Below are positions 14,462-63,500 of a DNA stretch of 64,000 nucleotides, piece by piece. Every line of letters starts with the position of its first letter. Positions within the stretch are counted from its first letter, which is position 1. Source of the stretch: Amyelois transitella (taxonomy: Eukaryota > Arthropoda > Insecta > Lepidoptera > Pyralidae); the NCBI RefSeq assembly GCF_032362555.1, contig NC_083534.1, positions 2,775,001-2,839,000 on the forward strand, read 5' to 3'. The notes under the pieces are model-generated. The model saw only the letters and a program-made list of their open reading frames with translations, was not told the origin of the DNA and ran no database searches. A program made the translations under genes and the position numbers.

Positions 14462-17400
14462 GTAAGGGTCAACAAAAATATGAGTAGAATCTGTTTATAT
14501 AAAATCCTGTGTATATCCTTGGTAAACCCCGAAACTGTCACCTATTTTCAAATTACTAATTCCTAACATTATGTATGGATAGTTTTACATTTTACTTGAT
14601 GGAATTTAGATTCAGATAGTAATAGCCTTCGCCTTAAGATACAATTTCCAGTTTGTATACTTTCTCATGATTGCATTTTACAATCTCCATTTGAAGTGAA
14701 GCAGCTGGCACACAATGTTTTTATTAGCTACCAGAATTAGAGTATGACACAGGAGATGTCGTATAAGGCGATTTAGGAAAGAAATGGAGCGGTTATTAAA
14801 CTGCAAGGAACCATACAGCTGTATGTTATGTTGATACCAAATAAACGTACCTTGTTCTTTAATATTTATATAATTGTAGTAATTATTAATCAAAATATCT
14901 TATATTTTAGGACTTGAAAACATTTTCTGAAGAGGATTTCAATCCTAAGAAATGGATAAACAAAGCTTGGAGCTCCAGCGGGAATCAGGATAAAGAGGTT
15001 AGTATGCGGAGTTATATCTTACAGCTGATGTGTCAATGTCTCAAGTCCAATGCAACAGCTGGCTGAGATGGAGTGGTCTAGTCAATGTGCCGAGACCACC
15101 TGACTGATCTATAAGTGATTCAAATTCAAAATCTTTATTGCATATCATAAAGTACATCAATTGAATTACAGTTACTGGTTATAAATAGGTACAATATGAA
15201 CCCTGTTGGGCATCGCAATTATAAAATAATTTGTAATGGCGGGAAGCTTATGTCGGGTATTATGTTGAATATAACAATAAAAAATGTCATATTATATTTG
15301 GAGAGAATATTAATAAGTAATTTAAAATAAATAAAATTTATAACATGTATTTAATTGATAAAATGATACATATATAATAATGAAAAATAATTTAAATGTC
15401 AATATTTTTATCATTTAAAGAAAGAAAAAAACTCAAAGAAAGAGAGTTATCTTACCTTCAGAGTTTACTCAACCCATGTGATTGTGTAGCTTTTTTTTTT
15501 TTCATTCAAATTAATTATTGGTTTTTAGGTGTTTGTGGCGAATACTGTCACGAGACTACAACTTTATATGAAACAGTTGACAAACTCCTTAGACGAGACT
15601 ACTACACAGGTGAGATAAATACATACATACACATCACAGTTCCGTGTGGTTCCTGGTACCAATAGTAAAAAAATAGTATTACTCTGTTTCTTTTACAACA
15701 TCCATGGGAGGTTTATAGGCTTATAAACTTGAGATTCTTCTTTTAGGCGACGGGCCAGCAACCTGTCACTATTTGAATGAATTTAAATTCTATTATTAAG
15801 TCAAACTGCTGAATGTGGCCTTAAGTCTTTTCAAGACTGTTTGCTCTGTCTACCCCGCAAGGGATATAGACGTGATTATTGTATGCGCAAGTTTCCTCAC
15901 GACGTTTCCCTTACCATAACTTATTTTTACTGTTTTATTGTGAATTTTTATTCAATACTAATTTAACTTACCCGAAACCGCCGAGCTTGCATGAAGAGAG
16001 TTATAAATGTGTATGAAGCGAAGGAAGTATGCAGAGATCGTGGCAAGTGGAAAGAGGTAGTCTCTGCCTACCCCACCGGGAAAGAGGCGTGATTTTATGT
16101 ATGTATGTATGTAATTTAACTTACTTCACCATAGATAGTAACATCAGTGCCCCGAATCCTTCAAGCGGCTTCAGCGCTTCAAGTAGACGGTGCGCTGTTA
16201 CAGCAGCGCTTGGATTCGCTGGAGAAGAAGCTGCAGGGAGTGGAACAGCAGACGGGGAACTCTATCGAGAGTCTGCAGAGGATTGATCGCTTGAAGAGTA
16301 GACTTGAGGTTAGTATACACAGTAAATCTGATTTGAAATTGACGAAATATTCGCATTGATATAATTAGTTCTACATTCATTCATGTTTTTAATGTAAACA
16401 ATGTGCTTTTGTCCACGATGTAGTTTTAAGAGATCTATATTTGTAAATTGACGTCCGATGAAAATGCTGCAATGTAGTTTGATCCGCCGCTTCTTCTACA
16501 CATGCGCTTTGGAAGCGGTAGTAGTTATGATCAGAATTAAGTGATGTGACTTCCAGTGTGCTTACTGATTTTACTATTCTTTTCACTCTCTCTATTACAG
16601 ACCATTCTGTGACCATTCCTCCTTTGTCCTTGGTCTTCAGACCGCAGCATCAGCACTCCGCGAGGAACCTGCTGGAGCCCTGAAGAACCTTCTCGATGAC
16701 GGTCTTCAGACTCATAAGGAGAAACTGTCATTTTAAATATAAGACCACTTTTTGAAATGGCAATATTACAGACCATTTTGTGACCATTCCTCCTTCGTCC
16801 TTGGTCTTCAGACCGCAGCATCAGCTCTCCGCGAGGAACCTGCTGGAGTCCTGAAGAACCTTCTTGATGACGGTCTTCAGACTCATAAGGAGAAACTGTC
16901 ATTTTAAATATAAGACCACTTTTTGAAATTGCAGTATTACAGACCATTTTGTGACCATTCCTCCTTCGTCCTTGGTCTTCAGACCGCTGCATCAGCACTC
17001 CGCCAGGAACCTGCTGGAGCCCTGAAGAACCTGCTGGATGACGGTCTGCAGACTCATAAGGAGAAACTGTCATTTTGAATATAAGACCACTTTTTGAAAT
17101 GGCAATATTACAGACCATTTTATGACCATTCCTCCTTCATCCTTGGTCTTCAGACCAGAGCATCAGCTCTCCGCCAGGAACCTGCTGAAGCCCTGAAGAA
17201 CCTTCTCGATGACGGTCTGCAGACTCATAAGGAGAAACTGTCATTTTAAATATAAGACCACTTTTTACGGACCATAATTCGTTTCGTGACCAAACCTCCT
17301 TCGTTCTTGGTCTTCAGACCGCAGCATCAGCTCTGCGCGAGGCGGACAAGTGGGCGGCGCTGGCTACGGCCCTGGAGGAAGTGCTGGAAGCGGGCGTGCC

Positions 17401-60500: not shown

Positions 60501-63500
60501 AGATTCAAATAGTGACAGATTGCTAGCCCATCGCCTAAAAGATTCAAGAAACAACGTAACATATAATCACGTCTTTATACTGTACCGGGTAGACAGAGCC
60601 AACAGTCATGAAAAGACTGAAAGGACAAGTTACAAACACGAAAAAAAAAGATAAAAATGTTTATTAGACTTTGTCAATTCTTGCAGATTTAAGAGATCTA
60701 CTATATTTGTAAAACGACGTCCGTTGAATATGGTGCAGTGTCGTCTATTCCGCAGCTTCTTCTACACATGCGAATTTAATTTCTCTTCAAACTCCGCGTC
60801 AAAAAACCTCTCTTTAATCTTCTGGCACAATGGCATACTCGTCTTCTTTTAGAAGCGGGGTAAGCAGATCCTCCGTGAAGTTCACAACACCGAGAACCAA
60901 ATTGAAGATAACAGTATTCTTACCGTGCCGTGTGGTTCCCGGAACCAATACAAAAATGAATAGGACCACTCCATCTCTTTCCCATGGATGTCGTAAAAGG
61001 CGACTAAGGGTTAGGCTTAAAAACTTGTGTTTCTTCTTTTAGGCGATGGGCTAGCAACCTGTCACTATTTGAATCTCAATTCTATCATTAAGCCAAATAG
61101 TTGTTGGCTCTGTCTACCCCGCAAGGGATATTAACGTGACCATATATATGTAGTATTCTTACCCTTTCTCTGAAAGCTTGAATTTCTCCTCGAACTCCTC
61201 ATCGAAAGACCTCCTCTTTTCATCCAGTACCCTGGTATACTCCTCCCCTTTGAGAGGCGGGGTGGGCAGATCCTCTGTGGAGTACACCACGTCCAGTACG
61301 AACGGAGTTTCCACCATCAGCTGTATGGGGACGAAGTTGACGTCTTTTTCCTGAAAAAGTAAATAAAAACCAATAATCCCAATAAATTGCAATCAGACAC
61401 ATCTGTGCACCATAGTGCCGTGTGGTTCCCGACACCAATAGAAAAAAGAATAGGACTCACTCCATCTCTTTCCCATGGATGTCGTAAAATGCGAGTAAGG
61501 GATAGGCTTATAAACTTGAGATTCTTCTTTTAGTCGATGGGCTAGCAACCTGTCACTATTTGAATCTCAATTCTGTCTGAAAGCCAAATAGCTGAACGTG
61601 GCCTATCAGTCTTTTCAAGACTTTTGGCTCTGTCTACCCCGCAAGGGATATAGTCATGATAATATGTATGTATGTTGTATTCAAATTTTAAGTTTAATTA
61701 AAACAAAAGTTTGAGAGTACCTTGTCATCCAGCTCAGGATCAGGTCTAAGACTGGTAAGCCTCCCCAGCGTGGCGTGGCGCTCCGCCTTCAATAGAGAAT
61801 GGAGCTTCTCTTTTAGCACGTGGAGCCCCGACGAGTACGCCTCAGAGTACGACTTGTGGATCACTTTGCCTGGACACGAGACAGGAGGACACTCACTTTT
61901 AAATTTAAAAAATTCGTTTAAAAAATTATGTGGTCTGCGTGAACCGTACAAATCTACGAAGCAGTAATTAAGATCTTCTTTTAAGCGTGGGGTCACTTAC
62001 TTTTAAATTAAAAAACACGTTAACAAAACGATGTGTGGTCTGCGTGAACCGTACAAATCTACGAAGCAGTAAATAAGATCTTCTTTTAAGCGTGGGGTCA
62101 CTTACTTTTAAATTAAAAAAACACGTTAACAAAACGATGTGTGGTCTGCGTGAACCGTACAAATCTACGAAGCAGTAAATAAGATCTTCTTTTAAGCGTG
62201 GGGTCACTTACTTTTAAATTAAAAAAACACGTTAACAAAACGATGTGTGGTCTGCGTGAACCGTACAAATCTACGAAGCAGTAAATAAGATCTTATTTTC
62301 GTAAGCGTGTCATCGCCTCTCATGACACCGCTTATGATGCACCTCTAAGTAAGTTACATACATATGTACATATAATCACGTCTATATCCCTTGCGGGGTA
62401 GACAAGCCAACAGTCTTGAAAAGACTGATAGGCCACGTTCAACTGTTTTCCAAGTTTATTAATAAGCCTTAAGTTATAAGCCTTTCCCTTAGTCGCCTTC
62501 TACGACATCCATGGGAAAGAGATGGAGTGGTCCTATTCTTTTTCTATTGATGCTGGGAATCACACGGCACATATCTAAATAAGTTTATTGAAATAAATTG
62601 TTTTTGGATTTAAAATTTAAAGAATGTTCTTGTTGGTTCCCTGGAAGTGATTGCATAATGCGATAAGGCCGCTTTTTGTACATATGTTTTTCAAGACTCT
62701 TGGCTCCGTCTACCCGGCAAACTATAAAAACGTGACGTGAAATATAAATTTAGAATTGTTTATAATTACAAAATCTAGCTTACCTTTATGAGGTACCAAT
62801 GCAACTTTGAAATTGTGCAGCTGCGGTGTGTGCCCCAAAAGCTGCCCGTTCTCAATCCAAAGCCGCGAGTGGGGCGCCGCGGGGCCCAGCGACTCGTCCA
62901 GAGCCCCGTACCAGATCAGGACGAAAGGCAGGTTGGCGTTGTTCTGTATTCAATAAAAATTATCATTAATTAAATTAGATATGTCCTGTCCATCTATACT
63001 ATATCTATACTATAGATATAGTATAGATGGACAGGATATCTAATTTAAATTAAAACAAACAAACAAATTCTTCAGCTTTATAATATTAGTATAGATTCTA
63101 AACTAATATTATAAAGCTGAAGAGTTTGTTTGTTTGAACGCGCTAATCTCAAGAACTATTGGTTCGAATTGAAAAATTCTTTTTGCGTCGAATAGATCAT
63201 TTATTGAGGAAGGCTTTAGGCTATGTGACATCACGCTGCAACTATAAGGAGCTAAGAAATAATGGAAAATGTGAAAAAAAACGGGAAAAATTATTCATCC
63301 TTGAGGTCGTCAATGATGATGTATTAGATTGATCACATCCAGTTGCTTGAATGTGCAAATTTCCACACGATGTTTTCCCTCACCGTGAGTTGAGCTCCTC
63401 ATCGTTGATTTGAACCTGTGCCTTACAGCATATCACGCATTAAACAACCACCTTAACTGATTCAATCACCAACACTCTATAGTTGACGACAAGTTACTGG

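Follow-up and report, generated by a model that had tools for sequence, protein, structure and literature searches.

Tandem duplications that include exon edges in introns of COG7, TDP1 and MOGS of Amyelois transitella

Intronic minisatellites are internally homogeneous tandem arrays whose units measure from tens to hundreds of bp. Tandem intronic units of such size occur in COG7, TDP1 and MOGS, three unrelated genes located in a 64-kb stretch (C30:2775001-2839000, hereafter the window) of the 327-Mb, 33-contig genome of the pyralid moth Amyelois transitella; unlike in ordinary minisatellites, the founding unit holds an exon edge in 9 of their 35 introns.

Short tandem duplications over an exon boundary have already been described, so the original prediction made on the window, according to which no named process accounts for such copies, does not hold. 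In the potato RdRp gene, as summarised in PMC4974935, one tandem duplication across the boundary between the first intron and the second exon made a new intron; the window shares with that case the short head-to-tail duplication over an exon edge and the inheritance of splice signals by the copies, and differs from the summarised case in its many events, mostly on the donor side, several of which became arrays, and in that no new intron is visible from the sequence. Tandem duplication is also summarised as a source of novel intron positions in Drosophila (PMC2891723), where, as here, coding sequence with splice-like motifs is regionally duplicated in insect genes; however, the Drosophila summary concerns duplications within coding exons that create introns, whereas in the window an existing intron takes up the copies. 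At the DNA level, breaks with 3' overhangs that are filled in and joined yield small tandem duplications, which are frequent in genomes (PMC8355091). Short segments are duplicated head to tail in both settings, but the summary of that work deals mainly with duplications below 100 bp, with no tie to exon edges, and a role of the same repair pathway here is putative. Among the matches listed in a literature holding few subscription journals, judged by titles and the starts of abstracts, no report of an exon-edge enrichment of tandem arrays was found; each event taken singly belongs to a known class, and a strong association of tandem arrays with exon edges, possibly over the whole chromosome, was not met in the literature searched.

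The models of COG7 (plus strand, 14 exons), TDP1 (plus strand, 10 exons) and MOGS (minus strand, 14 exons) were assembled manually on the basis of reading frames and splice signals; they are incomplete at their outer ends, and an exon of COG7 was possibly missed between exons 18024-18141 and 18803-18972. The spliced models give reading frames without internal stops, and they match the Pfam families COG7 (1e-79), Tyr-DNA_phospho (1.3e-118, for a TDP1 query without the first modelled exon) and Glyco_hydro_63 (2e-202, MOGS). The MOGS model includes a GC donor (GCAAGT) at position 58887, in exon 58887-59035.

Every exon was compared with its own flanking introns on both sides, and 350 runs in which the introns were resampled by a first-order Markov chain served as control. 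The best match reaches 39-317 bits in eight introns, against 34.6 bits for the top and 23.8 bits for the second control value. These introns adjoin, on the acceptor side, COG7 exon 17318-17464 and, on the donor side, COG7 exons 24206-24404 and 28726-28820, TDP1 exon 37643-37822 and MOGS exons 61163-61350, 58042-58214, 52439-52558 and 49616-49806. A ninth case, at MOGS exon 60224-60379, was caught by self-comparison of the window and missed by exon-versus-intron matching. Copies of the adjacent exon edge are present in 9/35 introns, eight on the donor side and one on the acceptor side (Table 1), and each has a head-to-tail copy with exon and intron sequence, the weak members being MOGS exon 60224-60379, with only 5 exonic bp in common, and MOGS exon 61163-61350, whose copy lacks the intron part. 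The self-alignment of introns against flanking exons proposed with the original prediction, run on the 35 introns, places eight above the resampled controls (donor 7/35, acceptor 1/35), and the two comparisons together recover its full list of nine introns, eight of them with the exon 3' end. Its three COG7 cases, assigned to exons 5, 12 and 14, stand, although the acceptor-side case belongs to the fourth and not the fifth exon of the rebuilt model; the array at MOGS 60224 does span the donor but consists mostly of intron start. In total, the gene spans contain 13 local duplication clusters that are not part of recognised repeats, nine at an exon edge and four intronic, three of the latter with short units.

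Table 1. Duplicated segments in the window and their relation to exon edges.
Feature	Positions	Strand	Content
COG7 171-bp x 4.4 array	16593..17342	+	acceptor side; four upstream copies of acceptor and first 25 bp of exon 17318-17464
COG7 exon 24206-24404, donor side	24206..26498	+	last 160-188 bp, donor and intron start; three downstream copies (24861, 25300, 26009)
COG7 exon 28726-28820, donor side	28790..29146	+	last 31 bp, donor and ~100 bp of intron; copy at 29024
TDP1 exon 37643-37822, donor side	37783..38456	+	head-to-tail 186-bp unit: 40-bp exon end plus 146 intronic bp with the donor
MOGS exon 61163-61350, donor side	60775..61350	-	~113 aligned exon bases copied at 60775-60888 (76%)
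MOGS 167-bp x 3.8 array	59510..60228	-	spans donor of exon 60224-60379; 5 exonic bases common
MOGS exon 58042-58214, donor side	57142..58080	-	39-bp end and donor; 104-bp x 5.2 array and older partial copies
MOGS 119-bp x 6.0 array	51785..52498	-	spans donor of exon 52439-52558; 60 exonic and 59 intronic bp
MOGS 170-bp x 2.3 array	49321..49737	-	spans donor of exon 49616-49806; 122 exonic and 48 intronic bp
Stop-codon end of the last MOGS exon	48323..48602	-	52-56 bp copy (75%) 224 bp downstream; splice donor absent
106-bp x 3.9 array, purely intronic	61887..62309	-	acceptor side of exon 61721-61869, stopping 17 bp short of it; counter-example without exon edge

The ten long-unit duplications of the window (eight donor, one acceptor, one intron-only) were placed at random in a Monte Carlo procedure that left out three short-unit intronic arrays (ACAT at 18976, a 20-mer at 41541 and a 28-mer at 42021). 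The donor hits expected are 1.16 over all gene sequence, 1.75 without repeats and 2.18 with repeats and extra copies stripped, and eight are observed (P<=1e-4), in a window that was itself picked because the exon-edge pattern had been noticed there. The donor side prevails over the acceptor side by 8:1 (sign test p=0.039; Fisher test on 8/35 versus 1/35, p=0.0275). Moreover, all ten long-unit duplications fall in the gene spans (p=0.003 on the basis of non-repeat length); in the 25.2 kb that make up the rest of the window, self-comparison reveals just a 29-bp pair (46456/47772) and the copy of the stop-codon end of MOGS. The latter copy, which is additional to the nine cases of the original prediction, scores 36.5 bits, against at most 22.9 over 200 shuffles, and it represents an exon edge that is likewise duplicated in the absence of a donor.

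A replication sample was provided by the 200 kb of the same contig adjoining the window, outside the view of the original prediction. Tandem Repeats Finder (TRF) gives 17 arrays of period at least 25 in this sequence; the nine of period at least 80 were scored and the eight of period 25-67 were not. By hand reading, which was unblinded, 8/9 scored arrays lie on coding exon edges, five at donors (arrays 2, 3, 5, 6 and 7) and three at acceptors (arrays 4, 8 and 9), one of them doubtful, namely array 8, whose exon is uncertain with ~8 exonic bases; array 2 has just 7 exonic bases in common with its exon, array 4 extends 26 bp into an exon of DCAF1, and array 1 begins a few bases inside an apparent intron. 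Array 5 sits in an Nse4 gene, whose peptide was the only one of seven tested to pass its family cut-off; the neighbouring arrays 2 and 3 presumably belong to DCAF1 as well, and array 6 to a gene taken to be CCDC186-like. For one exon near array 3, the PDB matches were to designed repeat proteins only. An automatic coding detector trained on the window exons, of which it finds 22/38 (missing 16), with 22/26 of its window segments on exons, was also applied, and 6/9 arrays touch a coding segment (2, 3, 5, 6, 7 and 8). Intervals of array length would give 1.9 (P=3.8e-3 with repeat-poor placement, 3.1e-3 with uniform placement) and intervals of unit length 0.85-1.1 (P=2.0e-4 and 4.7e-5, respectively); without the doubtful array 8, the count of 5/9 corresponds to P=0.02 for array length and 0.0007-0.002 for unit length. 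The exon-edge association is therefore replicated on this chromosome. The donor preference is unproven as a stand-alone result, being 8:1 in the window yet 5:3 (p=0.73) in the replication sample and 13:4 (p=0.049) when the two are pooled, and the stop-codon copy has no donor; the donor-specific hotspot originally proposed is thus not established.

As regards structure, the copies stand directly head to tail in the COG7 array at 16593..17342, the MOGS 119-bp and 170-bp arrays and the TDP1 186-bp case, and the 119-bp array is made of six units of exactly equal length. Unit numbers of 3.8-13.8, i.e., at least the three units of a minisatellite, occur in the COG7 array at 16593, the MOGS 119-bp, 104-bp and 167-bp arrays, the array at 61887..62309 and the 28-mer; four copies are present at COG7 exon 24206-24404 and about two at MOGS exons 49616-49806 and 61163-61350, COG7 exon 28726-28820 and TDP1 exon 37643-37822. 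Identity between copies extends from 98.8% in the 119-bp array to 76% for MOGS 60775-60888, in agreement with the predicted range from almost no divergence to heavy divergence. The duplications at TDP1 exon 37643-37822 and at MOGS exon 61163-61350 predate repeats inserted in them: a repeat inserted later interrupts the 186-bp copy, and a short interspersed element (SINE) with a 12-bp target duplication separates the MOGS exon from its copy. Since some duplications predate repeat insertions and the 119-bp array is near-uniform, the process has been repeated; independent events of differing ages, which hit both strands and three unrelated genes more often than uniform chance allows, bear out the original prediction on this point. 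Complexity is also internal to single cases, as the COG7 region 28790..29146 holds an inner 84-bp duplication and the unit of the COG7 acceptor array holds a diverged stretch of exon 17318-17464 (20 residues, score 41, reached in 0/2000 shuffles; 2 in 1000 at the DNA level). The first duplication there was probably old and took in more of the exon, and the four units arose later.

Several copies away from the exon have decayed. The copy of MOGS exon 61163-61350 has a stop and a frameshift, that of COG7 exon 28726-28820 an insertion, and the copies in the array of MOGS exon 49616-49806 carry amino-acid changes. Exonic and intronic parts are equally divergent in the MOGS 119-bp array (identity 0.983 versus 0.980) and at MOGS exon 58042-58214 (0.971 versus 0.963), which fits passenger copies.

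The donor GT is kept in the examined copies of COG7 exons 24206-24404 and 28726-28820 (the latter in a weakened context), TDP1 exon 37643-37822 and MOGS exons 58042-58214 and 49616-49806, at all six donors of the 119-bp array and in the first copy of the 167-bp array; the donor region is lost in the copy of MOGS exon 61163-61350. In the adjoining 200 kb, 11 exact donor motifs are found in array 3 and 6 in array 6, the exon's own counted. Past the inner donor, i.e., the one joined to the exon, an in-frame stop is encountered after 1-78 nt in 8/8 donor-side cases of the window, so that the exon-joined copy is the one able to make protein, and the idea that the outer copy of the donor remains usable is not supported there. 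All four upstream copies of the COG7 acceptor retain the pyrimidine-rich tract and the AG and are in frame for ~31 codons before a stop. The distance between exonic breakpoint and donor is not fixed and varies from 5 to 160 bp. The best acceptor score near the unit starts of 12 donor arrays was compared with that of exon starts picked at random and joined to random sequence, and no significant acceptor-like signal emerged (p=0.063; the MOGS 61163-61350 copy, which has no donor, was omitted, array 2 counted as having no site owing to its 7-bp exonic part, and the MOGS 60224 case was misaligned to a spurious long match). On this test, the candidate reading of the donor-side units as complete mini-exons starting at an exonic AG was rejected.

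Several further features were observed. Recognised repeats, i.e., self-similar sequence of the window, start at most 12 bp from the donor in 13/35 introns, with SINEs nearly on the donors, and end at most 12 bp from the acceptor in 7/35. A 28-bp x 13.8 minisatellite without exon match occupies 42021-42415 in a TDP1 intron, ~55 bp past the donor. Array units in the window and in the 200-kb stretch often measure 142-186 bp, apparently close to nucleosome length. Self-BLAST of the 200 kb gives 15 local clusters, including 8/9 scored arrays (array 2 is absent) and a 55-bp intronic array; four short or AT-rich clusters (-132199, -83157, -50811 and -15279) have no confident class, and an in-frame, coding-looking Gly/Pro/His-rich repeat at -40851 to -40581 (C30:2734149-2734419) is apparently a purely exonic array. 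In a further cluster, at C30:2743396-2744361 (~-31604 to -30639), a segment of ~34-40 bp with acceptor- and donor-like flanks is present twice, 896 bp apart and 88.6% identical over 70 bp, and from its sequence looks like a duplicated micro-exon. Outside the three genes, a minus-strand reading frame at 12515-13252, presumably zinc-finger-like, carries an in-frame 18-bp repeat (12804-12868), and a plus-strand zinc finger resembling that of aprataxin and PNK-like factor is located at 35519-35629, upstream of TDP1.

Taken as a whole, the copies are probably accounted for by short tandem duplications at the DNA level that include an exon edge, the exon-joined copy being functional and the others intronic passengers. 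An ordinary short tandem duplication (unit ~40-200 bp, one larger), possibly originating from break repair with fill-in synthesis, would happen to include the edge; some arrays may later grow by unequal exchange, up to ~13 copies, while the copy joined to the exon body would stay under selection and serve splicing. In our opinion the edge enrichment may derive from a mix of three causes: introns filled with repeats, in which much of the remaining single-copy sequence is near exons (9.6 kb over the 35 introns after repeats and arrays are stripped); the innocuous nature of an extra copy on the intron side, which would leave one good splice site and the exon intact; and, possibly, a genuine excess of breaks at exon edges. 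In large introns, preference goes to the splice sites nearest to each other across the exon, as summarised in PMC9225289, and if the present introns, which measure 482-2470 bp when they bear arrays, count as large, this preference would let splicing continue at the exon-joined site, whether donor or acceptor. It would explain the survival of both donor- and acceptor-side arrays, including COG7 with its four intact upstream acceptors, which a simple rule of first-site use would not tolerate and which weigh against the passenger account. The same is true of other observations. When acceptor, whole-exon and exon-only events are assumed to be purged, the donor excess persists at present unique intron lengths (8/9, P=0.002; 8/11 with two short-unit intronic arrays counted, P=0.017), so a real hotspot at exon edges may exist; 2/5 donor-side arrays of the adjacent 200 kb (2 and 5) can be read as far as the next donor without a stop; and in the COG7 24206-24404 copies identity is somewhat higher in the exonic than in the intronic part (0.958 versus 0.917), as function would also predict. 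Finally, 0/3 long-unit arrays lie at a recognised exon edge in 95 kb from other chromosomes, a gene-poor sample with 6 detected coding segments versus 49 in the 200 kb. Here the detector misses exons, since it gives no segment in a 5-kb kinase stretch where kinase matches fall. The contig of the window is 4.69 Mb long and the other contigs sampled 9.5-12.8 Mb, and the pattern may belong to small chromosomes.

It is tentatively conceivable that short tandem duplication arises preferentially at exon boundaries, which would then be genuine mutational hotspots of this genome, for instance through breaks or nicks at the edges of exon-positioned nucleosomes or during transcription. The excess over uniform and repeat-stripped placement, the replication in the adjoining 200 kb, the confinement of long units to gene spans and the duplicated stop-codon edge all speak for such hotspots; however, if unique intron once amounted to 200 bp or less per intron, 8/9 donor cases would be unsurprising (P=0.27 at 200 bp, 0.73 at 150 bp), and the scattered breakpoints, the lack of a significant acceptor-like motif and the result from the other chromosomes argue against them. 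That exon boundaries of this genome, or of its small chromosomes, are minisatellite birth sites, at which duplication starts far more often and selection then favours the exon 3' side, is likewise conceivable but less likely than not. Selection for the copies as spare donors or alternative exons is improbable: the donor GT is intact in most examined copies, exact donor motifs are numerous in arrays 3 and 6, and the intact, in-frame acceptor copies and the better-kept exonic part in COG7 are in its favour, but the outer donors run into stops, the 119-bp and 58042-58214 arrays of MOGS diverge evenly and the MOGS 61163-61350 and COG7 28726-28820 copies are broken. Alternative donors are therefore not supported, and alternative exons, which need an acceptor of their own, an open frame and a donor, find no significant acceptor signal in the donor-side copies as a class and a stop in the COG7 acceptor copies. 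Intron gain through a duplicated exonic AGGT segment (Rogers model) is very improbable; some units do begin near an exonic AG followed by G, but the introns reach far past the duplicated edge and are not made up entirely of exon sequence duplicated from one AGGT site to another, and acceptor-likeness at unit starts does not significantly exceed chance. Introners, i.e., near-identical introns at many unrelated sites, do not match the arrays either, as the 119-bp array finds only itself in a whole-genome search, the comparison of the remaining arrays being confined to the window. A false repeat expansion in the assembly, to which the near-identical copies of the 119-bp array might point, is most improbable, since the copies in the majority of the window arrays have diverged or bear private changes, nested duplications or repeats inserted later are present in some arrays, and the pattern recurs in other genes.

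On balance, the observation of the original prediction is confirmed and its interpretation partly supported. If exon edges attract tandem duplications or preferentially keep them, then intron growth, splice-site redundancy and raw material for introns and exons would arise at a measurable rate in one genome, and the counts of donor-side, acceptor-side and purely intronic arrays would represent a clean test of mutation bias versus selection. Should exon edges prove to be hotspots, exon-anchored arrays would be expected in a sizeable share of genes.

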